Shown here: positions 23,831-59,087 of the stretch, piece by piece
How positions within the stretch are numbered: position 1 is the stretch's first letter
How the letters are laid out: every line of letters starts with the position of its first letter
Origin: Gallionella sp.
GTDB taxonomy: Bacteria; Pseudomonadota; Gammaproteobacteria; Burkholderiales; Gallionellaceae
NCBI GenBank assembly: GCA_028707275.1
Contig: JAQTUP010000005.1
Location: forward strand, 62,001-126,000
Direction of reading: 5' to 3'
Length of the DNA: 64,000 nucleotides
The notes under the pieces: model-generated
Told to the model about the DNA's origin: nothing
The model's database searches: none
What the model saw: the letters and a program-made list of their open reading frames with translations, nothing else
Program-made: the position numbers and the translations under genes

Positions 23831-23892
23831 GGGCGGAATAAAATGGTTCTATGTGATTTTCAGTGGATATGCGAATTTACAAATTTACTTTT

Positions 23893-24133
23893 GCCGGTGG
23901 CAGACCGGCAGCTGGCCACCTTCTTTTGCGTCGCCAAAAGAAGGTGGCTCAAGAAAAGGCGACCCCGGCTTGCCGCGCCAGCCTGTCTTGCATAAGGCTG
24001 GCTGGCGTACCCTTGATAGCCAGCAAACAGCGGGGCTGCGGAACTCGCACGATCCGCTTCGCGGCCACGTACTCAAACAGTCCTCGCCCAACGGCACCGC
24101 TGTTTACCCGCTATCTGCGGCGGCGCACAGGGG
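23893..24133 (+). repeat. dispersed repeat, copy A (left of the ApeA-like gene)
   Basis: About 241 bp. Outer end GCCGGTGGCAG, then a hairpin with a perfect 14-bp stem (23915-23928 with 23935-23948) containing CTTCTTTTG. A central conserved part holds GGGGCTGCGGAACTCGCACGA and ACTCAAACAGT, and the inner end is GGCGGCGCACAGGGG. The same layout is found at 57415 (same strand) and 58438 (opposite strand). Open frames crossing it are non-coding in my view. Confidence 0.88.
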
Positions 24134-24501
24134 TTAAGGGTGGTACTGAAAGTGCGTAATTTCATCGTGCTGTTTATTTTGGAGTTTTCAAATCACCCAC
24201 TGCATTTCACATCGAGCCAATAAAATTAAGTCGGGTTTGGATAGGTGGTTTTTGCGTCCCCGGCGACGACTTCAGGGCGGGGGGCAGCAAGGATGAATGA
24301 CTGGTTTGTGCCAATTGCTGCTATTCGGTGAGTTTACCAAGTGATTGGTGCTCCATTCAAAACAGGAAAAAAACTCCTGTGTAAGCCTGCCTATTTGAAT
24401 TAGGTCTCCTTACTTAACGCTATTTTTAGCTCAGCCAATTTTACATTGTATGCTATGCGGAATCGGGTGAAATTGTGACCTCCCCCACAATAATTCCCAC
24501 T
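24134..24501. other. intergenic region, nothing recognised
   Basis: 368 AT-richer bases between repeat copy A and the 3' end of the ApeA-like gene. No open frame with protein character, no clear hairpin terminator and no known RNA motif seen. Confidence 0.5.
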
Positions 24502-25896
24502 CTACGAATTGGCATCCCATCCCGCTTCTATCAAGTCAGAGGCAGCGAAGGTGAACTCCAATGCATCGGTTAGAAAACTCATTAGAGGCTCAATTGCAGC
24601 ATAGTTGAAGTTGTCAGAGCCACCGTGAACGAAATAATTACGACATTTGACAGAGGTCTTCAATACTAACGTTAATTCCGGAAATTTGTGCCCAAGGTGA
24701 CGTGCCACTATATCACCCCTATGCAACACTTTCGTTGTCAAAGAAGGCTTACCCATTCTGCCCAGAGCATTCATTATGCTGTCTCGTTCAATGCCACGTA
24801 GACTCTTGAAAATCGTGCGGCATTGAGTTTGTGCTGCCACAAGTTCGGTTGACATTTCTGGAGCAATGGGGACTGCTTCTTTCGGGAGAAGATCGAACAT
24901 GTTGGCTGCCGCAATCAAACGGTTGGTATCGTATGAGTTTCCTTGGCGCAAACATTCGTTGTAGCGCGCTCGGGCGATCCTCCAGGTAGAATCGCGAACA
25001 ACCCAGTCTTTTAAGGCTGTAGCGAATTCTTCCGGCCTGTGTACAGCGTCAAGTGGAATGTCACCTGGATGCGGCACTTCAACGGACTTGTCGTTTTTTT
25101 TATAGCCTTGCGGTGCAAAGCTCCAACTTAAATGCAGTGGTGCGTGCGGTTGGACTGACTCATCTGCAATATCCAAACAAACCGACTTGACACCTTGTTT
25201 TCGACCGGCGAGTAGCGTTAGAAATCTAACTACAGTCATAGTCAGTTCAATGCAGTCGTCAAAGGCAACTGGGGTTACAGGAGTTACCGTAACCATTATT
25301 TTATTCTTTATAAAAACACCGTTGGGGCCACCCATATTGTAACTGGGACAGTGATTAACTGAGATTCTGCCAATCACAGTGTCGACGGAAATTATTTCGC
25401 GCTTGCCTGTGAAGTATGTGATCAGTGGCATACCCCCTACTGCAATCTCTCGATCTATATTGTTAGATTTAACAACATTTTCAATGAGCGGTTTTGAATC
25501 AATAACATGACCGAAAGCATCAAAGTCGTAAAAGATAGAAGAAATATCGGTAACAGTGAAATGCACAGCTTTGATAGAAGGCTGATCCGGTTGAAGATGT
25601 TGTGATCCTATCGTTACGAAATGGGGGAACACATCAGCATGGCAATACCTCTCCTCATCCATGGCCCCTGAATTCCCCCAGAAAGTGCAAATGCACTGTA
25701 TGCAGCTAACTTTAGAAAGGTCATGTAGTTGGCCGTGAATAAGACGGGGGATTTTTGGCTGATGATTAGTTCCTTCAAGGCGTAATTTCAGTGTGCTGTT
25801 GCGGCCCTTCAGACGAAGCTCTCCGAAAACTTCGGAGCCATCAGGCAATGCAAATTTACCTAATTTCCGCGATTTTTTAGAAGCTACTTTCTTCAT
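24502..25896 (-). CDS. ApeA-like HEPN-domain protein, probable anti-phage defence
   Basis: 464 residues. The N-terminal part (KLGKFALPDGSEVFGELRLKGRNS, RLIHGQLHDLSKVSCIQC) resembles the ApeA N-terminal domain. The C-terminal part is helical and holds RNYFVHG, an R-x4-H motif (Arg419, His424) diagnostic of HEPN ribonuclease domains. ApeA proteins act in abortive infection, presumably by RNA cleavage; function here is inferred. The gene is visibly AT-richer than its neighbours and uses different codons. It stands alone, and lies between inverted copies of a dispersed repeat (23893-24133 and 26085-26330). This suggests horizontal acquisition. Confidence 0.75.
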   Translation of the reverse strand: MKKVASKKSRKLGKFALPDGSEVFGELRLKGRNSTLKLRLEGTNHQPKIPRLIHGQLHDLSKVSCIQCICTFWGNSGAMDEERYCHADVFPHFVTIGSQHLQPDQPSIKAVHFTVTDISSIFYDFDAFGHVIDSKPLIENVVKSNNIDREIAVGGMPLITYFTGKREIISVDTVIGRISVNHCPSYNMGGPNGVFIKNKIMVTVTPVTPVAFDDCIELTMTVVRFLTLLAGRKQGVKSVCLDIADESVQPHAPLHLSWSFAPQGYKKNDKSVEVPHPGDIPLDAVHRPEEFATALKDWVVRDSTWRIARARYNECLRQGNSYDTNRLIAAANMFDLLPKEAVPIAPEMSTELVAAQTQCRTIFKSLRGIERDSIMNALGRMGKPSLTTKVLHRGDIVARHLGHKFPELTLVLKTSVKCRNYFVHGGSDNFNYAAIEPLMSFLTDALEFTFAASDLIEAGWDANS

Positions 25897-26084
25897 CCTA
25901 TTTGTCCATTAGTCGGTTGGGCACTGCGGGCACTGCGAATTCTAAACTGATCATTGTATAGAGTGGTTATTCTCCGACGTCCGCTGTGTCTCGTTTGCCG
26001 CATGTCATGAGCGACTGCATTCGGGCGATGCGCTTATGAGGTTAAATTGTCGTAATGGGGCGTTGATGCCAGCGCGGTTCCCAT

Positions 26085-26330
26085 CCCCTGTCCGCCGACA
26101 GGCAGGCCTGTGCGCCGCCGAAGACTGCCTGTACACAGGCAGAAAGGCAAACAACGGTGTGGGTAGGCGAGCACTGTTTGAGCACGTAGCCGCGCAGCGG
26201 ATCGGGCGAGTTGCGTAGTCCCGCCTGTTTGCGGTTATCAAGGGAACTCCGCCTGACTGTCACCTGCCTGCCATGTCCGCCGACAGGCAGGCCTGTGCGC
26301 AGCCCCGTTTGTTTGCGAAAAGCTCGGGAT
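26085..26330 (-). repeat. dispersed repeat, copy B (right of the ApeA-like gene, degenerate)
   Basis: Reverse orientation relative to copy A. The inner end (CCCCTGTCCGCCGACAGG, CTGTGCGCCGCCGAAG) faces the ApeA-like gene. The central part has ACTGTTTGAGCACGTAGC and GGCGAGTTGCG. A second partial fragment (CCGACAGGCAGGCCTGTGCG followed by CAGCCCCGTTTGTTTGCG) follows at about 26277-26330. The terminal hairpin seen in copies A, C and D is missing, so this copy is truncated or rearranged. Confidence 0.75.
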
Positions 26331-26351
26331 CTGGAAAAGATATGCTGCTAA

Positions 26352-26442
26352 TTCACCCTTCACCCTTCACCCTTCACCCTTCACCCTTCACCCTTCACCC
26401 TTCACCCTTCACCCTTCACCCTTCACCCTCCACCCTTCACCG
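26352..26442. repeat. 13-unit 7-bp tandem array, unit TTCACCC
   Basis: Eleven perfect consecutive TTCACCC units (26352-26428), then TCCACCC and TTCACCG. It is the longest and most uniform heptamer array in the window. It ends 4 bases before the dbpA stop codon on the opposite strand, so it forms the immediate 3' flank of dbpA. No unique spacers, so not a CRISPR. Confidence 0.97.
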
Positions 26443-26446
26443 CTTT

Positions 26447-27862
26447 TTACAACGCCCTGACCTTCACGGACTTGCCCTTGACCTTGCCGGCATTCAATTT
26501 GCGCACGGCCTCATTGGCGATGTAGTGCGCGACCGCCACGTAGGTTGAAAAATCAGTCACGTTGATTTTGCCGATTTGCTCGCGCGTGAATCCGGCGTCT
26601 CCTGTGAGTGCGCCCAGCACGTCGCCTGCGCGGATTTTCTCCTTGCGGCCACCCAGAATCTGCAAGGTCACCATCGGTGGCACCAGAGGTGCATCATCCT
26701 CGTCCTTGAGTTCGCTGATCTCGTGCCATTCGGGCACGCTGCCGGTCATCTTGGCGATGCTGACGATGCGCTGACGGTCAGACGGGCCGCACAGCGAGAG
26801 CGCCCAGCCATCCTGGTCGGCGCGCCCCGTGCGTCCGATGCGATGGACGTGAATCTCAGGGTCGGGCGTGACATCGACGTTGATGACCGCTTCGAGTTGT
26901 GCGATATCCAGACCCCGCGCTGCCACGTCGGTCGCTACCAATACCGAACAGCTGCGGTTGGCGAACTGGATCAGCACCTGATCGCGCTCTCTTTGTTCCA
27001 TGTCGCCATTCAGGGTCAGCGCATAAATGCCCTGCGCATGCAGCACTTCGAGCAAGGATCTGCATTGCTGTTTGGTGTTGCAAAAAGCCAACGTGCTGAC
27101 CGGGCGGTAATGGCGAAGCAAGCGGCCTACCGCCGCCAGACGTTCCTCGTTGCTCACTTCATAGAAACGCTGACGTATCTTGCCCGTTTCATGCTGTTCG
27201 GCCAGTTTGACTTCCTGCGGATGGCGCATGAACTGGCGCGCCAGGCGGCTGATGCCTTCCGGATAGGTCGCCGAAAACAACAGGGTCTGGCGATCGCTCG
27301 GGCAACGCTTGGCAATGAAGGCCATGTCGTCGTAAAAGCCCATGTCCAGCATGCGGTCGGCTTCGTCGAGCACCAGGGTGTTGAGCGCCGACAAATCAAG
27401 CGTGCCGCGCTCCATATGATCCATGATGCGTCCGGGCGTGCCCACCACGATGTGCGCGCCGTGCTCCAGGCTCGCGATCTGCGGGCGCATGGTGGAACCG
27501 CCGCAAAGCGTGAGGATCTTGATGTTGTCCTCTGATCTGGCCAGTCGGCGTATCTCCTGGGTGACCTGATCGGCCAGCTCACGCGTCGGGCACAGCACCA
27601 TCGCTTGCACCGCGAAGCGGCGCGGGTTCAGACGGGTGAGCAGAGGCAGTGCGAAGGCCGCTGTCTTGCCGCTGCCGGTCTTGGCCTGCGCGATCAGATC
27701 GTGCCCTGCCAGTGTGACAGGCAGGCTGGCCGCCTGTATCGGCGTCATCACAGAATAGCCTAACTGCTGCAAGGTCGCCAGTAGGCCGGGCGAGAGGGGC
27801 AGTTCGTTGAAAGGTCGCGAGGCAGACGCGGGCGAAAATGGGTTTTGTGTAGTATCGTTCAT
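26447..27862 (-). CDS. dbpA: ATP-dependent RNA helicase DbpA
   Basis: 471 residues. DEAD-box core: Q motif GYSVMTPIQAASLP, motif I AQAKTGSGKTAAFALP, Ia PTRELADQV, Ib TPGRIMDHM, DEAD as VLDEADRMLDMGF, SAT as LLFSATYPE, VATDVAARGLDIAQ, HRIGRTGRA. The C-terminal about 75 residues form the DbpA RNA-binding domain (VTLQILGGRKEKIRAGDVLGAL), which targets 23S rRNA helix 92 for large-subunit assembly. I chose ATG 27862; the TTG two codons upstream is also possible. A 13-unit heptamer array follows the stop. Confidence 0.95.
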   Translation of the reverse strand: MNDTTQNPFSPASASRPFNELPLSPGLLATLQQLGYSVMTPIQAASLPVTLAGHDLIAQAKTGSGKTAAFALPLLTRLNPRRFAVQAMVLCPTRELADQVTQEIRRLARSEDNIKILTLCGGSTMRPQIASLEHGAHIVVGTPGRIMDHMERGTLDLSALNTLVLDEADRMLDMGFYDDMAFIAKRCPSDRQTLLFSATYPEGISRLARQFMRHPQEVKLAEQHETGKIRQRFYEVSNEERLAAVGRLLRHYRPVSTLAFCNTKQQCRSLLEVLHAQGIYALTLNGDMEQRERDQVLIQFANRSCSVLVATDVAARGLDIAQLEAVINVDVTPDPEIHVHRIGRTGRADQDGWALSLCGPSDRQRIVSIAKMTGSVPEWHEISELKDEDDAPLVPPMVTLQILGGRKEKIRAGDVLGALTGDAGFTREQIGKINVTDFSTYVAVAHYIANEAVRKLNAGKVKGKSVKVRAL

Positions 27863-45920: not shown

Positions 45921-47225
45921 ATGAACAGAATCGGCAAATATGAAATCGTGCGTGTACTCGGCACAGGTTCGACCAGTACCGTGTATCTGGCCGTTGATCC
46001 GTTCAATAAGCAGCAGGTCGCCATCAAGTTGTTCGACTTAAAACACTTGCAGGATCCAAAACGCGCCAAAATCAACCGCAAGTTGTTGATGACCGAGGCG
46101 TCCCTGGCGGGGAAGTTGTCACATCCGCACATCGCAAAGATTCAGGATGCGGTGATGGAGGGCGATATCAACTACGTGGTGATGGAGTATGTGGAGGGCT
46201 GTACGCTGGAGCAATATGCCGATGTGGACAAGCTGCTGCCCATCAGTACGATCGCGGAAATCATCTACAAGTGCTGCAAGGCGCTCGAATACGCACAGCA
46301 TCAGGGCGTAATCCATCGCGACATCAAGCCTGCCAATATTCTGTTGCAGGGCGAAACCAATATCAAGATTTCAGATTTTGGCGCCGCCGTGTTGCAAAAC
46401 AATCAGAATACGACGCAGGTTGCAGGTGTCGGATCGCCGGCTTACATGTCACCCGAACAGGTGGAGGAGTTGACGCTGACCCATCAGACCGATATTTATT
46501 CCCTGGGCGTGGTGATGTACAAGCTGCTCTGCGGAAAGTTGCCGTTCGATACCGGCAGCAATCTGAGCATGATTTATCACATTCTCAATATTGATCCGCC
46601 CCTGCCCAGTGCATTTCGTTCGGAAATCCCGCAGGAGATGGATGCGATTGTACGGCGTGCCATGGAGAAGGATCAGTCCAGACGCTACCAGACCTGGGGT
46701 GAGTTTGCCGATGATCTGGTGGTGTTTTTTAGTCACGTGGCGCCCAATCATACGGAAATTTTCGATACCGAAAAATTTAATACGTTGCGTAGCCTTGAAT
46801 TTTTCAAGAATTTTGGCGATGTGGAACTTTGGGAGGTATTGCGCGTCACTGTATGGCGCAAGGTGCCCGAATCCGAGAAGATCTTGCGCGACGGTGAAAG
46901 CGGTCGTGATTTTTTCATTCTCGCTCAGGGTGTCGTGCATGTGCTGAAAATGGGAAAATCCCTGGGTCTGCTGGAGCGCGGTGACTGTTTCGGTGAAATG
47001 GCGCACTTAGCCGAGCATGATTGCAATCGCAGTTCAGACGTGATCGCCAAGAGTGAGGTGTTGCTGATAGAAATCGATCCGGATGCGCTGACACACGCGA
47101 CGACAGGATGCAGATTTCAGTTCGCAGATGCATTTTTGCATTTGCTGGTGAAACGCCTGGCACTGGCGAATGACCGCATTTCGCACTTGCTGGCCGATAA
47201 AAATCAAACAGGAATAACAATATGA
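45921..47225 (+). CDS. Ser/Thr protein kinase with cyclic-nucleotide-binding domain
   Basis: 434 residues. Hanks-type kinase about 5-265: glycine loop VLGTGSTSTVYLAV, lysine in VAIKLF, catalytic HRDIKPANILL (131), DFGAA, GSPAYMSPEQV, DIYSLGVVMYKLLCGKLPF; all catalytic residues are present. A CRP-like cNMP-binding domain (about 290-410) follows, with ILRDGESGRDFFILAQGVVHVL and the phosphate-binding cassette FGEMAHL...NRSSDV, where the Arg is kept. No membrane segment, so cytoplasmic. ATG 45921 chosen; the longer frame is array DNA. The 3' end overlaps the rhodanese gene by 4 bases. Paralogous to the gene at 47830. Confidence 0.9.
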   Translation: MNRIGKYEIVRVLGTGSTSTVYLAVDPFNKQQVAIKLFDLKHLQDPKRAKINRKLLMTEASLAGKLSHPHIAKIQDAVMEGDINYVVMEYVEGCTLEQYADVDKLLPISTIAEIIYKCCKALEYAQHQGVIHRDIKPANILLQGETNIKISDFGAAVLQNNQNTTQVAGVGSPAYMSPEQVEELTLTHQTDIYSLGVVMYKLLCGKLPFDTGSNLSMIYHILNIDPPLPSAFRSEIPQEMDAIVRRAMEKDQSRRYQTWGEFADDLVVFFSHVAPNHTEIFDTEKFNTLRSLEFFKNFGDVELWEVLRVTVWRKVPESEKILRDGESGRDFFILAQGVVHVLKMGKSLGLLERGDCFGEMAHLAEHDCNRSSDVIAKSEVLLIEIDPDALTHATTGCRFQFADAFLHLLVKRLALANDRISHLLADKNQTGITI

Positions 47226-47536
47226 CAGGTTTTAAAAATATCACCGCAGCAGAGCTTGTGACGATGATGCAGCAGCCGGGATTGAAGTTGATCGACGTGC
47301 GCACGGACGCGGAAGTCGTGCGAGGGATGATCCCGCAAGGGGTCGCACTGCCGCTGCATTTGTTGCCGTTGCGCCTGAGCGAGCTGGACAAGAATGTGAC
47401 GACGGTGTTTTATTGCCAGATGGGTGGGCGCTCGGCGCAGGCGGCCGCATTTGTTGCCGCGAACGGCTTTGCCGATGTGTATAACCTGCAAGGCGGGATT
47501 ACGGCCTGGGCGCACGCGGGCTTGCCTGTCGCATGA
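47222..47536 (+). CDS. single-domain rhodanese-like sulfurtransferase
   Basis: 104 residues, one rhodanese domain: ITAAELVTMMQQPGLKLIDVRTDAEVVRGMIPQGVALPLHLLPL, catalytic loop YCQMGGRSAQAA with Cys and Arg in the expected CxxGxR pattern, and GFADVYNLQGGITAWAHAGLP. It overlaps the kinase gene upstream (ATGA) and the TusA-like gene downstream by 4 bases, so all three should be co-translated. The same domain is fused to the second kinase (47830-49455). Confidence 0.93.
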   Translation: MTGFKNITAAELVTMMQQPGLKLIDVRTDAEVVRGMIPQGVALPLHLLPLRLSELDKNVTTVFYCQMGGRSAQAAAFVAANGFADVYNLQGGITAWAHAGLPVA

Positions 47537-47763
47537 TTGAATTCGATGTCGAGCTGGATGTGCGCCAGTTAGACTGTCCTTTGCCTATCCTGCGCGCCAA
47601 AAAATCCCTCTCGTCCATGCTGAGCGGGCAGGTGCTCAGGATTGCCGCCACAGATAAGGATGCACCGAAAGACTTTGAGGTGTTTTGCCGTCAGACAGGT
47701 AATGAGTTGCTCGCATCAGAGGCGTGCGAGGGTGAATTTGTTTTTTACCTGCGCAGGCGGTAG
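47533..47763 (+). CDS. TusA family sulfurtransferase
   Basis: 76 residues. Seen: LDVRQLDCPLPILRAKKSLSSMLSGQVLRIAATDKDAPKDFEVFCRQTGNELL, with the CPLP (CPxP) motif whose Cys carries persulfide. TusA proteins shuttle sulfur between rhodaneses and acceptors, which fits the rhodanese gene it overlaps. Whether it serves tRNA thiolation, cofactor synthesis or something linked to the kinase is not visible. Confidence 0.92.
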   Translation: MIEFDVELDVRQLDCPLPILRAKKSLSSMLSGQVLRIAATDKDAPKDFEVFCRQTGNELLASEACEGEFVFYLRRR

Positions 47764-47829
47764 ATCATGGCCATGAATTAACATGCGCGCCTGTACGAGG
47801 TTGATCATCCTGTAATTCTCAAACAGAAC

Positions 47830-49455
47830 ATGGATAAAATCGGCAAATATGAAATAATCCGCGAACTCGGTACCGGTGCGACCAGCACTGTGTATCTGGC
47901 GACCGATACTTTCAGCAAGCAGCAGGTTGCCGTAAAGGTAATTGATCTTAAAATAGCGCGCGATCCGGTTCAGGCTAAAATTTTCCGCAAACTATTGCTG
48001 ACAGAAGCTTCTCTGGCCGGGAAACTTTCTCATCCGCATATCGTAAAAATTCTCGATGCCGTGATCGACAGCAATGTAAATTACATTGTGATGGAATACG
48101 TTGAAGGCAGTACGCTTGAGAAGTATGCAGAAGTGAGTGGTTTGTTGTCATGCAGTTCTGTCGCGGAAATCATTTACAAATGTTGCAAGGCACTCGAATA
48201 CGCTCAGTCTCAGGGCGTCATCCATCGAGACATTAAACCGGCCAATATCCTGTTGCAGGGTGAAACCAACATCAAAATTTCAGATTTTGGTGCCGCCACT
48301 GTTCAGACCTTGCAGGTGACTCAGGTGAGCGGGGTGGGTTCGCCGGCCTATATGTCGCCGGAACAGGTCAAGGAATGGCCGCTCACTCATCAGACGGATA
48401 TTTATTCGCTGGGCGTGACGATGTATAAACTCCTGACGGGCAAGTTGCCATTTGACTCGGCCAATAAGTACAGCATGATTTATCAAACAATCAATGTTGA
48501 GCCGACGCAGCCCAGCATGCTCAGACGTGAAATTCCTCCCGAGTTCGATGCGATTGTGCTGCGTGCGATGGAAAAGGATCAGACGAAGCGCTACCAGACA
48601 TGGGATGAGTTCGCGCGCGATCTGGTCGGATTTTTTAGCCATGCAGCCCCCGCTCAAGCTGAGATTTTTGATACCTCGAAATTTGATATTCTGCGCGGCC
48701 TGTTGTTTTTCAAAAACTTCAGCGATGTCGAGCTTTGGGAAGTGTTGCGCATCAGCGAGTGGCGCAGAGTCTCGGAATCGGAATATATTCTTCGTGACGG
48801 CGAGTCTGGTTGTTCATTTTTTGTCCTGGCACAGGGTACCGTGCATGTGCTGAAGCAGGGGGACTTGCTCAGCGTATTGCATCGCGGTGATTGTTTTGGC
48901 GAAATGGCTCATCTTTCCGAGAGTGTATTCAAGAGGCATACCGATGTGGTCGCCAAGACGGATGTGGTGTTGATCGAGATCAATCCTGAATTGCTGATAC
49001 ACGCTACGATGGCTTGTCGACTGCTGATAGGGGATGCTTTTTTGCGCATTTTGATCAATCGCTTGTCGACCGCCAATGTGCGCGCATCAGAGGTGAAAGG
49101 TAAACAGAAACAGACGATACAGAAAACGAATGTAAAGTCCGTGGGTTTTAATTTTATAACGGCTATCGAGCTCAAGAAAAAATTGTCTCAGGGCGGCTTG
49201 CGTTTGATGGATGTGCGCACGGATGATGAGGTGGTGCGCGGCAAAATTCCTCAGGCTGACTCCTTGCCTTTGCATCTTATCTCGATGCTGTTGTATGAGT
49301 CGGACAAGAGTGTTCCTGTGGTGTTTTATTGTCAGAAGGGTAAGATTTCGGCGCAGGCTGCCAGGTTTGCAGTCGAGAATGATTTTGCCGATGTATGCAT
49401 ACTGCTGGGGGGGATCGCTGCCTGGGTACATGCCGGTTTACCGATCGCACCGTAA
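47830..49455 (+). CDS. Ser/Thr kinase-cNMP-binding-rhodanese fusion protein
   Basis: 541 residues. A paralogue of the 45921 protein over its whole length: kinase (ELGTGATSTVYLAT, VAVKVIDL, HRDIKPANILL at 132, DFGAAT, GSPAYMSPEQV), cNMP-binding domain (ILRDGESGCSFFVLAQGTVHVLKQ, FGEMAHL...FKRHTDV). A basic linker (KGKQKQTIQKTNVK) leads into a C-terminal rhodanese domain (about 439-541: FITAIELKKKLSQGGLRLMDVRTDDEVVRGKIPQ, FADVCILLGGIAAWVHAGLP). The rhodanese loop is CQKGKIS; the Cys is kept but the usual Arg is Ile. Looks like a tandem duplication in which kinase and rhodanese became one protein. Divergence is considerable, so the duplication is not recent. Confidence 0.9.
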   Translation: MDKIGKYEIIRELGTGATSTVYLATDTFSKQQVAVKVIDLKIARDPVQAKIFRKLLLTEASLAGKLSHPHIVKILDAVIDSNVNYIVMEYVEGSTLEKYAEVSGLLSCSSVAEIIYKCCKALEYAQSQGVIHRDIKPANILLQGETNIKISDFGAATVQTLQVTQVSGVGSPAYMSPEQVKEWPLTHQTDIYSLGVTMYKLLTGKLPFDSANKYSMIYQTINVEPTQPSMLRREIPPEFDAIVLRAMEKDQTKRYQTWDEFARDLVGFFSHAAPAQAEIFDTSKFDILRGLLFFKNFSDVELWEVLRISEWRRVSESEYILRDGESGCSFFVLAQGTVHVLKQGDLLSVLHRGDCFGEMAHLSESVFKRHTDVVAKTDVVLIEINPELLIHATMACRLLIGDAFLRILINRLSTANVRASEVKGKQKQTIQKTNVKSVGFNFITAIELKKKLSQGGLRLMDVRTDDEVVRGKIPQADSLPLHLISMLLYESDKSVPVVFYCQKGKISAQAARFAVENDFADVCILLGGIAAWVHAGLPIAP

Positions 49456-55184: not shown

Positions 55185-56318
55185 ATGCCCGATTATCCGC
55201 AAACTAGCCGTATAAAGTCAAAGTTGTTTCACTCCACGCTGTTTCAGCGTGCGTTAGTGCTCGAATTTATCGGCAACGGCTTGCTGGTATTCGCGACTTT
55301 GTTGGGTATTGTGGTGATCAGTCAGCTGATTCGCTTTCTGGGTGAAGCGGTCAGCGGCAAGCTGGCGGTAGATGGAGTGCTGGCGCTGCTGGGTTTTAGC
55401 GCCTTGAATTACCTGCCTGTTTTGTTGTCCCTGAGCTTGTTTATCTCGATCTTGCTGACCTTGTCTCGCTGTTATCGCGACAGCGAAATGGTGGTGTGGT
55501 TTTGTGCCGGTATCGGATTGACGCGCTGGATACGGCCTGTTTTGTGGTATGCCATGCCTGTGGTGCTGTTGATCGCGCTGCTCAGTCTGGTCTTGTCTCC
55601 CTGGGCATTAAAAAAAGCGGATGAATACAAAAACAAACTGGAAAGCCGCGATGAGGTTTCCAAAATTACGCCTGGCGTGTTTCGCGAGTCGGGACAATCG
55701 GACCGGGTGTATTTTGTCGAGAGTGCCGACGTGGTTGGCGGCCGGATCGGCAATGTCTTTGTGCGCTCAGTGCAAAATGCACAACTGGGTACGATGGTGG
55801 CGCGCGAGGGGATTCAGGAGATATTGCCTAATGGCGACCGTTTTCTGGTGTTGTTAAATGGCACGCGTTATGAGGGTACGCCCGGCGCGCGTGATTATCG
55901 CATCGTGGAGTTCGAGCGTTATGCCATGAGAATTGACAGCGTGGCTGCCAAACAGTCGTTGCCCAATGTGCGCACCTTGCCCACCGAGGCCTTGTGGCGT
56001 CACCCCACGACATGGAATCTGTCCGAGCTTGAGTGGCGTCTGGGTCTGCCTATCAGTGCTGCTGTGCTCGCCTTGCTGGCGATCAGCTTGAGTTATGTCA
56101 ATCCCCGCGCCGGTCGATCGCTCAATATGGTGCTGGCGATGGTGCTCTATATGTTGTACAGCAACATGATCAGCGTGACCAATGCGTGGGTAGGTCAGGG
56201 CAAGTTATCGCCCGGTATCGGGTTGTGGGGCATTCACGCACTGATGTTGCTGATTACCGCACTGCTATTTTATTGGCGCATGACGCTGTTCTCGATGCGT
56301 CGGATATTCAAGAAATGA
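55185..56318 (+). CDS. lptF: LPS export ABC transporter permease LptF
   Basis: 377 residues. Six hydrophobic segments: three near the N-terminus (FQRALVLEFIGNGLLVFATLLGIVVI, YLPVLLSLSLFISILLTL, VLWYAMPVVLLIALLSLVLSPWAL) and three near the C-terminus, around a periplasmic beta-jellyroll (about 130-270). Part of the LptB2FG extractor that moves LPS into the Lpt bridge. The first about 17 residues (MPDYPQTSRIKSKLFHS) are longer than usual; a TTG start nearer FHSTLF cannot be excluded. Overlaps lptG by 4 bases. Confidence 0.94.
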   Translation: MPDYPQTSRIKSKLFHSTLFQRALVLEFIGNGLLVFATLLGIVVISQLIRFLGEAVSGKLAVDGVLALLGFSALNYLPVLLSLSLFISILLTLSRCYRDSEMVVWFCAGIGLTRWIRPVLWYAMPVVLLIALLSLVLSPWALKKADEYKNKLESRDEVSKITPGVFRESGQSDRVYFVESADVVGGRIGNVFVRSVQNAQLGTMVAREGIQEILPNGDRFLVLLNGTRYEGTPGARDYRIVEFERYAMRIDSVAAKQSLPNVRTLPTEALWRHPTTWNLSELEWRLGLPISAAVLALLAISLSYVNPRAGRSLNMVLAMVLYMLYSNMISVTNAWVGQGKLSPGIGLWGIHALMLLITALLFYWRMTLFSMRRIFKK

Positions 56319-57391: not shown

Positions 57392-57414
57392 GGAGCGTCA
57401 TGCGGTGATTTTTT

Positions 57415-57652
57415 GCCGGTGGCAGGGCAGGCACGGCGGGGTGCGGCTCCGCAGCCGGTGACTTTCTTTGCCCTGCCAAAGAAAGTCACCAAAGAAATGC
57501 CGCCCCGATCCGCCATCCCGTCGGGATTCCCTGCGTTGCTCGCCAGGTCAGGCGGCTGCGCAACTCGCACGATTCGCTACGCGTCCACGTGCTCAAACAG
57601 TGCTCGCCGACATCCCCTGGCCAGTCTGCGCTACTCGGTGGCGGATAAGGGG
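57415..57652 (+). repeat. dispersed repeat, copy C (left of the Mrr-like gene)
   Basis: About 238 bp. Outer end GCCGGTGGCAG. Hairpin with a perfect 14-bp stem (57457-57470 with 57477-57490, GGTGACTTTCTTTG type, 6-base loop). Central GGCTGCGCAACTCGCACGA and GTGCTCAAACAGTGCTCGCC, inner end GGTGGCGGATAAGGGG. Same order of blocks as copy A although individual blocks have diverged. Confidence 0.9.
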
Positions 57653-57791
57653 TTGTGGGTGTGGGGTTTATAGCTGTGCCGCAAATGAAAATCAACTGAA
57701 AGCCCCTTTAAAGCTGCCCATGATTTTGCTTTTTCGGAACGAGCCAGAGACTATATTTTTATTCGTTTTATCCGGACGTTTTGAGTCGATA

Positions 57792-58331
57792 TTAGATCGT
57801 TGATGAGCATGACGGGCATGTATGTTCGTTTTTAGAAACAAAAAATTGCTTGCTGCATTTATCGCAGTAACGAATATGTTCTGCGTCGCAACTGCTTGAT
57901 ATAGTCGCGCGAGTAACAACGCCGATGAAAATTTTATTCAGAAATTGCATTGAGAACTCGAGTGGAGTGCTGTCTTCGTGTAGTTCAATGCTGATAATAT
58001 TTTCAGACTGTGCAATTTTATTCGCTCCGGCTTGAAGCCCTAATGGGCTTACAATTATGCCGCCGTCCGCACCTGAGTCAATGATGCGATAAGCTAGGCC
58101 ACCAAGCTTCTCTTGGTTTTGCTTGGTTGTTGTGTACCTACGGCACTCTATGATCACAAAGCCCTCGTTGTTGTGGCGAATCCCTTTTGCATCAATGGCC
58201 CATGGGGTGCCTGATCGCTGTCCAATTATCGATTGTTTGGTTTCTACTCGCGACAGACCAAATTCTTTAGCGAACTCATTGAGTAAGTAGGCTGCAACTT
58301 CTTCATAGGTTTTCCACGGCATGTCAGTCAT
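57792..58331 (-). CDS. Mrr-like PD-(D/E)xK nuclease with C-terminal zinc ribbon
   Basis: 179 residues. The N-terminal part holds a restriction-endonuclease-like core: Asp47 in WAIDAKG and Glu62-x-Arg64 in FVIIECRRYT (ECRR in place of the common ECKR), then GGLAYRIIDSGADGGIIVSPLGLQAGANKIA, which matches the Mrr/PD-(D/E)xK block after the catalytic strand. The C-terminal 25 residues carry two CxxC pairs (156/159 and 172/175), a zinc ribbon. Likely cleaves or binds DNA; no methylase is nearby. Visibly AT-richer than neighbours and enclosed by inverted repeat copies C and D, so probably acquired. Confidence 0.75.
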   Translation of the reverse strand: MTDMPWKTYEEVAAYLLNEFAKEFGLSRVETKQSIIGQRSGTPWAIDAKGIRHNNEGFVIIECRRYTTTKQNQEKLGGLAYRIIDSGADGGIIVSPLGLQAGANKIAQSENIISIELHEDSTPLEFSMQFLNKIFIGVVTRATISSSCDAEHIRYCDKCSKQFFVSKNEHTCPSCSSTI

Positions 58332-58437
58332 ACAGATTCCTTTTCATAAGCTTAATAACTGATGTTACGCACAAGCTCAAAAAAATCGGGGTTAATGAGT
58401 TATTTTGAGGGGTAACCTTGGCGCTCCACCTTGAAAT

Positions 58438-58681
58438 CCCCTGTGCGCCGCCGAAGGCGGTCAGCAAATAACGGTGGGGTTCGGCGAGGACTGTTTGAGC
58501 ACGTGGATGCGTAGCAGATCGTGCGAGTTCCGCAGCCCCGTTGTTTGCTGACTGTCGAGGGAATCGCGCCGATCTGCCAGTGGCCGATCGGCGGGACGGC
58601 GCGCCGGGGTCGCCTTTTCTTTAGTGACTTTCTTTTGGCGACTCAAAAGAAAGTCGCCAGCAGCCGGGCTGCCCCCGGCAA
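58438..58681 (-). repeat. dispersed repeat, copy D (right of the Mrr-like gene)
   Basis: About 244 bp, opposite orientation to copy C. Inner end CCCCTGTGCGCCGCCGAAGG faces the nuclease gene. Central GAGGACTGTTTGAGCACGTGG and TCGTGCGAGTTCCGCAGCCCC. Outer hairpin 58624-58637 with 58644-58657 (14-bp stem with one G-T pair). Outer end GCCCCCGGCAA, 4 bases from the DUF3106 stop codon. Confidence 0.9.
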
Positions 58682-58685
58682 GGTA

Positions 58686-59087
58686 TTACGGCTGTACTGC
58701 AACCGGGGCGACGCCGCTGGCGGGGTGTTGCGCTTTGACGGTCTGGTTTTGTCTGACCATCAGTTTGACTTGTTCGCGTTTTTCGGCAGGCAGCTGGCTA
58801 AAGGCCCGGTATTTTTCCCGTGCCGCCTGGCGTTGCGCTGGAGTGAGTTGCGCCCAGGTTGTCAGGCGGCTCAGGAAGCGTCTTTTTTCATCCGCGTTGA
58901 GTTTTGGGTATTGCCGGGCTGTCTGGCGCAGGCTGTGCTGCTGAGCCTCAGGCAGGCTGCTCCATTGCGGCTGCAAAGGTGCCAGCGCCTGCTGTTCTGT
59001 CTGCGGCAGGGTGTGCCAGGGTTCGGCTGATGCCGCTGTGGCGTTAAGTGTGCAACAGAGTGCAACGGCGCAAACCAGGTTCTTCAT
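58686..59087 (-). CDS. DUF3106 domain protein
   Basis: 133 residues. Signal peptide (MKNLVCAVALCCTLNATAASA), then a helical Gln-, Arg- and Trp-rich domain with repeated turns: WHTLPQTEQQALAPLQPQWSSLPEAQQHSLRQTARQYP, WAQLTPAQRQAAREKYRAFSQLP. This pattern is that of DUF3106. Probably periplasmic; function unknown, though CpxP/RseB-like sensory roles have been imagined for such helical proteins (speculative). Last gene of a three-gene minus-strand unit after the sigma factor and DUF3619 gene; it abuts the DUF3619 stop. Confidence 0.85.
   Translation of the reverse strand: MKNLVCAVALCCTLNATAASAEPWHTLPQTEQQALAPLQPQWSSLPEAQQHSLRQTARQYPKLNADEKRRFLSRLTTWAQLTPAQRQAAREKYRAFSQLPAEKREQVKLMVRQNQTVKAQHPASGVAPVAVQP

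Follow-up and report, generated by a model that had tools for sequence, protein, structure and literature searches.

An Mrr-like gene between inward-facing repeats in Gallionella: a possible arm-bounded exchange site among many in Gallionellaceae

The lptG/DUF3106 locus and its repeats

The DNA analyzed here is a stretch of 64,000 nucleotides from a contig of Gallionella sp. (JAQTUP010000005.1, positions 62,001 to 126,000), which we call the window. Toward its right end, a single small gene lies between two inward-facing repeats, designated copies C and D, and the whole arrangement is held between lptG and a gene for a DUF3106 protein. The features of this locus, in window coordinates, are as follows.

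55185-56318: lptF, paralogue of lptG, matching PF03739
56315..57391, plus strand: lptG, conserved left neighbor (start set by homology; synteny)
57406..57655, plus strand: copy C, left arm, an ancestral-type structured arm (basis, nhmmer), with its outer hairpin toward lptG and its inner end at GATAAGGGGTTG
57792..58331, minus strand: cargo gene, encoding a 179-aa Mrr_cat-like putative restriction endonuclease with a C-terminal Cys-rich stretch
58358..58684, minus strand: copy D, right arm, a hybrid (nhmmer match, 362 bits)
58358..58370, plus strand: ACTGATGTTACGC, a terminus of type-I MITEs (DNA pattern search)
58686..59087, minus strand: DUF3106 gene, conserved right neighbor (PF11304, E=4e-22)

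The order of lptG, the DUF3106 gene and a sigma factor is conserved in relatives. Copy C begins 15-20 bp past the lptG stop codon (57391) and copy D abuts the DUF3106 stop codon (58686), which confirms the original prediction that the pair fills this gap; the predicted layout, an inward pair enclosing a single AT-rich gene on the minus strand, was also borne out (C plus, ORF minus, D minus). The two repeats measure ~250-330 bp, and the GC content of the enclosed ORF is 43%, against 55% around it. A degenerate core pattern of 37 bases, with up to 3 mismatches allowed, matches the window at exactly four places, copies A-D, as against 0.00 in 100 shuffles, and these four copies fall into different sub-types. 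Copy C is without MITE ends. Copy D combines a type-I MITE-like core and 3' terminus on its inner side, to which the MITE-type terminus is confined, with an outer side at the conserved arm position beside the DUF3106 stop; its ACTGATGTTACGC terminus sits 27 bp upstream of the start codon of the cargo gene, and ends of this type border 7-8 bp target duplications elsewhere in the same genome. The window yielded no Rfam match. It also contains, at 45921-48515, two tandem blocks of ~700 bp, 1909 bp apart and 72-86% identical, which are probably duplicated genes.

The cargo protein had been called an Mrr-like nuclease. This name is backed by a weak profile match and by ~55%-identical homologues on Streptomyces plasmids, one of them annotated as "restriction endonuclease", but the Mrr_cat (PF04471) match is sub-threshold, with 19.2 bits against a Pfam cut-off of 21 (E=0.0014). 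The 75 other genomes of the genus contain no homologue at E<=1e-6. No PDB match was found for the N-terminal domain, and a single-sequence AlphaFold2 model, made with no alignment, was uninformative (pLDDT 40).

A second place in the window, at 23893-26330, had been described as a cassette of identical layout, and the two were counted as independent cases that make chance less likely. Its features are these.

23845..24218, plus strand: copy A, a complete type-II MITE bordering the ApeA "cassette" on the left
24502..25896, minus strand: ApeA-like HEPN gene (PF18862, E=9e-22; PF18739, E=1e-10)
26107..26270, minus strand: copy B, a degenerate core fragment, right border of the "cassette" (nhmmer)

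Copy A is a stand-alone MITE flanked by an 8-bp target duplication of its own (AATAAAAT, 23837-23844 and 24219-24226); the left border of this "cassette" is therefore an independent insertion, and the argument from two cases falls with it. Nor is the layout identical, since copy B is a fragment without ends, covering only positions 158-300 of the nhmmer model, and the sub-types differ. A scramblase gene, the neighbor of the ApeA site, is absent from the other 75 genomes of the genus. At 26338-26449 there is a TTCACCC tandem array beside a DEAD-box helicase (dbpA-like) gene.

In the whole 3.17-Mb genome, the core pattern occurs at 49 places (reversed control, 0), a count based on pattern searches and retrieved stretches. 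Most copies are complete elements of ~350-450 bp with the ends CTGATGTTACGC...GCGTAACATCAG, and 20 of the 31 type-I copies are flanked by a 7-8 bp target duplication, compared with 2.0 in shuffles. These elements are MITEs, scattered singly over the genome rather than built as pairs. Two MITE families, which differ in their termini (CTGATGTTACGC and GGTTCTATGTGAT; about 45 copies), have captured the arm core and spread with 7-8 bp target duplications (for example at C12:651169 and C1:36564), and chimeric copies carry one CTGATGTTACGC-type and one GGTTCTATGTGAT-type end.

Inward pairs within ~3 kb in this genome enclose ApeA, Mrr, AIPR, petAB, a hypothetical gene, or nothing, and those of longer range also span housekeeping genes. 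The AIPR gene (PF10592, E=7e-36; C14:670016-671869, or L131:11517-13370) lies between inward repeats at C14:669489 and 671986 and, with them, takes up the space that separates ettA from a radical-SAM gene, making a third defence-type cassette; in relatives, no full arm was found beside the radical-SAM neighbor, only a single 16-bit remnant in genome G003. A further inward pair, of 5.5 kb (C12:440797-446819, L113), surrounds a PDDEXK_2 (Rpn-type) gene and a gene for a 1013-aa protein with a RelA/SpoT domain. Single copies of the MITE type dominate this genome, which makes a test of pairing in it weak, and the genome by itself gives a weak suggestion of a carrier.

Arms and cargo in related genomes

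Relatives were searched with a covariance model of the repeat core, and core matches less than 6 kb apart were treated as pairs. All 37 close pairs, from 20 other genomes, face inward. Fifteen of them are empty, with 88-157 bp between the cores (six of these are in a different family of the order), and the remaining 22 are filled, with 0.67-3.6 kb between the cores. A pattern scan of named genomes found loci in Gallionella, Sideroxydans, Sideroxyarcus, Ferrigenium and other Nitrosomonadales, and a few in Sulfuricella, Thauera, Aquabacterium, Niveibacterium and gammaproteobacterial MAGs. When the arm profile was applied to 80 named-genome loci, 39 pairs were inward (at least 7 of which duplicate loci of the 20-genome set), against 3 direct and 1 outward, whereas random orientation would give a quarter inward; the four non-inward pairs are mostly fragmented or weak matches. 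About 65 non-redundant pairs elsewhere share the layout of C and D.

The cargo was analyzed in 40 cassettes, namely 36 non-redundant filled pairs, three from the window's genome and one from its nearest relative (G044). It is mostly a single ORF, rarely two or three, and its GC content is lower than that of the flanks in all 40. Defence-type Pfam matches above the cut-off were found in 15 of the 40 cassettes, and about six more are sub-threshold. The families above the cut-off are T5orf172/GIY-YIG, Abi_alpha, AbiJ_NTD4, DUF4145 (twice), Mrr, DUF3800, AAA_16/STAND-like, AAA_21 with RloB, a metallophosphatase with a weak STAND match, RelA_SpoT, TIR/SEFIR, AIPR, ApeA, and KAP with NACHT-HEAT; DUF4145, DUF3800, metallophosphatase and AAA/STAND cargo is counted here as of defence type in view of what is generally known of these families. 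Cargo proteins (44) matched 99 PADLOC families and neighboring proteins (44) matched 9, a control that measures enrichment over the chromosome rather than over other AT-rich accessory genes. The best E-values were 1e-106 (AbiU), 1e-94 (AbiLi) and 1e-47 (bSEFIR), and 20 cargo proteins, scanned singly, gave no convincing PADLOC match. About half of the cargo belongs to no recognized family. No housekeeping enzyme was recognized between the arms in relatives.

The check proposed with the original prediction, a search for inward-facing repeat pairs enriched in defence genes, accordingly had a positive outcome: the pairs are inward almost throughout and their cargo is strongly defence-biased. What stands of the idea of a repeat-bounded carrier of small defence genes is this pairing and, once the relatives are included, this bias, but not a jumping unit. 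An all-against-all BLASTP search found no homologous cargo between any of the 40 cassettes; the sole exception is a duplicated IS110 inside one of them. No integrase was recognized among the cargo ORFs of the 40 cassettes, one of which holds the IS110 pair. At locus L223, a TIR/SEFIR protein with a weak Macro match is encoded inside the arms, flanked by two identical IS110-type transposase genes.

The arms are structured, ~220-330 nt long, and usually start right after stop codons, convergent host gene pairs being common. From the outside in, the GC hairpin GCCGGGGGTAGCCCGGC is followed by a T-rich/A-rich hairpin (CTTTCTTTTG..CAAAAGAAAG), then by a small hairpin and a long-range stem; the core, with CTCAAACAG, comes next and CACAGGGG last. 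The structure is supported by covariation, with two-sided changes at 16 of 30 pairs in the family of the window's genome and at 21 of 37 in relatives. In 30 of 37 between-species comparisons, the non-coding arms are more similar than the coding flanks, and no recombination tract was observed in the arm comparisons. Arms that share a site resemble each other only a little more (identity 0.82) than arms from different sites (0.75), so the arms themselves turn over. No arm matched an Rfam family (the loci with arms gave only a tRNA, in three loci), blastn searches found no arm in PLSDB plasmids or INPHARED phages, and IMG/VR had no match to the core pattern.

A leader of ~40 nt, GTAGATAGGCAAAACAATTYGACTCCGGTACATTGG, is common to many unrelated cargos and lies about 60-96 nt inside the arm, often preceded by a hairpin, GGTGGGCAACAAGTTGCCCACC (loci L168, L170, L174, L176, L179, L182, L210, L214, L245, L261 and others). 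It always points inward, and in 18 of the 19 matches that can be scored for side it is on the gene-start side; the one end-side leader is a second copy in a cassette that also has a start-side leader. Away from the arms, a shorter related motif forms half of an inverted pair, GGTACCGGAGTCGATTT..AAACAATTCGACTCCGGTACC, so that the leader may derive from a REP-like element. The leader pattern has no match in the window's own genome.

One way to read such arms is as the ends of a non-autonomous transposon or a REPIN-like single-strand element that a transposase acting in trans, such as a Y1 (RAYT-type) enzyme, would mobilize; the filled pairs would then be cargo-bearing copies and the empty pairs miniature ones. 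Inverted pairs with a constant empty form do resemble REPINs, the arms are conserved hairpin arrays with covariation, 12 of the 13 genomes searched contain 1-5 Y1_Tnp genes, and single arms do move as MITEs in the window's genome, with the target duplications given above. Identity between partner arms ranges from 0.58 to 0.99, and the 97-99% identity of some partners is what young insertions would show. We nevertheless think this reading unlikely, considering that no target duplication was found around the 16 cassettes examined, that the Y1_Tnp genes are unlinked to the cassettes, that the outer limit of the inverted repeat differs from one cassette to another, and that the same sites are re-used across species. 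Matching target duplications at the outer arm ends, as a composite transposon would leave, were looked for in the same 16 cassettes and not found.

Reuse of sites and exchange of cargo

At 22 of 30 loci, a set that includes the window's own, lptG and the DUF3106 gene are adjacent without arms. In G044, a left arm is present at the lptG site, 82% identical to copy C over 265 nt and followed by total divergence, and a right-arm remnant lies behind the DUF3106 stop, in the same place as copy D. The cargo between them (L318, G044:C74, 2600-6870) encodes a KAP NTPase with pentapeptide repeats and a NACHT-HEAT protein, with no Mrr. This bears on the simplest reading of the window itself, namely that C and D are unrelated insertions that flank an acquired gene by chance. 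Copies are frequent in this genome and most are independent MITEs, copy A at the ApeA locus certainly is one, and copy D has a MITE terminus; however, arms at the same positions around other cargo in G044 largely refute this reading, and the exact filling of the gap and the layout shared with so many pairs elsewhere also speak against it. We regard chance flanking as very improbable.

All-against-all comparison of flanks identified many recurrent sites, at which the arms keep fixed chromosomal positions while the cargo differs. The six loci of the odhB/oxidoreductase site hold AbiJ-like, AbiL-type AAA with RloB, metallophosphatase-STAND, DUF4145 and two other cargos. The ubiX site holds AbiJ_NTD4, a STAND ATPase and others in the flank comparison; in a targeted inspection, 13 of 30 species had arm sequence downstream of the ubiX stop with differing cargo (AbiJ_NTD4 and, by eye, DUF2971-like in two species and HNH-like). 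Six of 17 arm-less ubiX sites retain a scar of the arm hairpin within 70 nt of the stop, compared with 2 of 603 background windows, indicating past loss.

The lptG site also receives accessory genes where arms were not detected, as with the HigA/HigB toxin-antitoxin-like genes (by eye) of L320 (G003) and L323 (G020), so that part of the pattern reflects a site between convergent genes that is permissive in general. Such genes fit a reading in which the arms are transcription insulators or terminators around accessory genes at permissive intergenic sites and play no part in exchange. The position of the arms right after stop codons, often between convergent genes, agrees with this, and a leader on the gene-start side of many cargos suggests a standard expression layout. 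On the other hand, a scan of the window region for Rho-independent terminators gave results not above chance, with fewer sites than in shuffles; empty pairs leave nothing to insulate, and the arms are shared by unrelated sites and species. A purely insulating role therefore seems quite unlikely to us.

The reading we prefer, with a probability of about 55%, is that copies C and D bound an exchange site of a kind that occurs many times on the chromosomes of Gallionellaceae. Each site would consist of two inward structured arms between conserved host genes, with an interior that is either empty (~100 nt) or occupied by AT-rich genes gained by horizontal transfer, normally a single one and rarely two or three, which very often belong to defence families. 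The arms would last at a site over species-level time, and the cargo would be replaced or lost. Because the arms differ little from site to site and from species to species, we infer that cargo is exchanged chiefly through homologous recombination in the arms once DNA has been taken up, so that each site could act as a landing pad for any cargo with the same flanking arms. Recombination between sites should then occasionally place the same cargo at two arm-flanked sites, and no such case was found. In the window's genome, a transposon family with CTGATGTTACGC ends would have captured the arm sequence and spread it as single MITEs, copy D being such a hybrid, which would explain why the pattern is blurred there.

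A bolder version, possible in our view rather than probable, is a dedicated integrase-free platform. An unknown recombinase or single-strand nuclease would recognize the paired arms and capture cargo behind a standard leader, and the dozens of fixed sites per lineage would make up a distributed library of single-gene defences, integron-like in function and mechanistically unrelated to integrons.

Comparison with known systems

Searches of the accessible open literature turned up no account of repeats like these, although they may have been published elsewhere, and the repeat-framed sites of these iron-oxidizing, Gallionella-type bacteria look like a previously undescribed gene-exchange platform. 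If so, they offer a possible route by which solitary defence genes enter and leave chromosomes without phage or transposon vehicles, in at least one family. The arms are also a simple search handle, and the family-less genes between them are candidate new anti-phage genes.

Several known systems share part of this picture. Defence islands and hotspots likewise have conserved flanking genes and variable defence content, but they usually comprise several genes and arrive with phages, satellites or transposons, whereas here single genes lie between arms for which searches of phage, plasmid and viral collections gave no match. REP/REPIN sequences with their RAYT are also dispersed palindromic repeats in inverted intergenic pairs; the Gallionellaceae arms differ in being about ten times longer and multi-hairpin, in regularly enclosing genes of 0.7-3.6 kb, and in that the RAYT is unlinked. 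Chromosomal integron arrays resemble these sites in their large pool of mostly single, AT-rich, unrelated genes, many of them for defence, beside conserved sequences, but here one gene occupies each dispersed site, with long inverted arms on both sides. TIME-COMP composites (PMC4133298, PMC13367494) and mobile insertion cassettes (PMC6542083) similarly hold passengers between inverted non-autonomous repeats and are transposase-free. Unlike MITE/TIME composites, the Gallionellaceae cassettes have no detected target duplication or fixed terminus, and their arms stay put while the cargo differs; MITE behavior, with terminal inverted repeats and target duplications, is limited to the single copies in the window's genome.

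Among described concepts, the minimal mobile element of Neisseria (Saunders and Snyder 2002) comes closest; a passage in PMC8627216 presents it as a conserved gene pair with strain-variable content between, homologous recombination being the sole mechanism of transfer. These elements often carry restriction-modification genes, their exchange is attributed to homologous recombination, and they are associated with DNA uptake sequences (PMC3388099). The Gallionellaceae sites likewise show conserved flanking genes with variable content (lptG/DUF3106, odhB, ubiX and other sites), and no transfer machinery or integrase was recognized inside the variable regions of the 40 cassettes. They differ in having empty arm pairs, mostly one gene per site and a leader common to many cargos. 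In minimal mobile elements, the flanking role is played by the conserved genes themselves, whereas the Gallionellaceae sites are framed by the same inward structured arms across sites and species.
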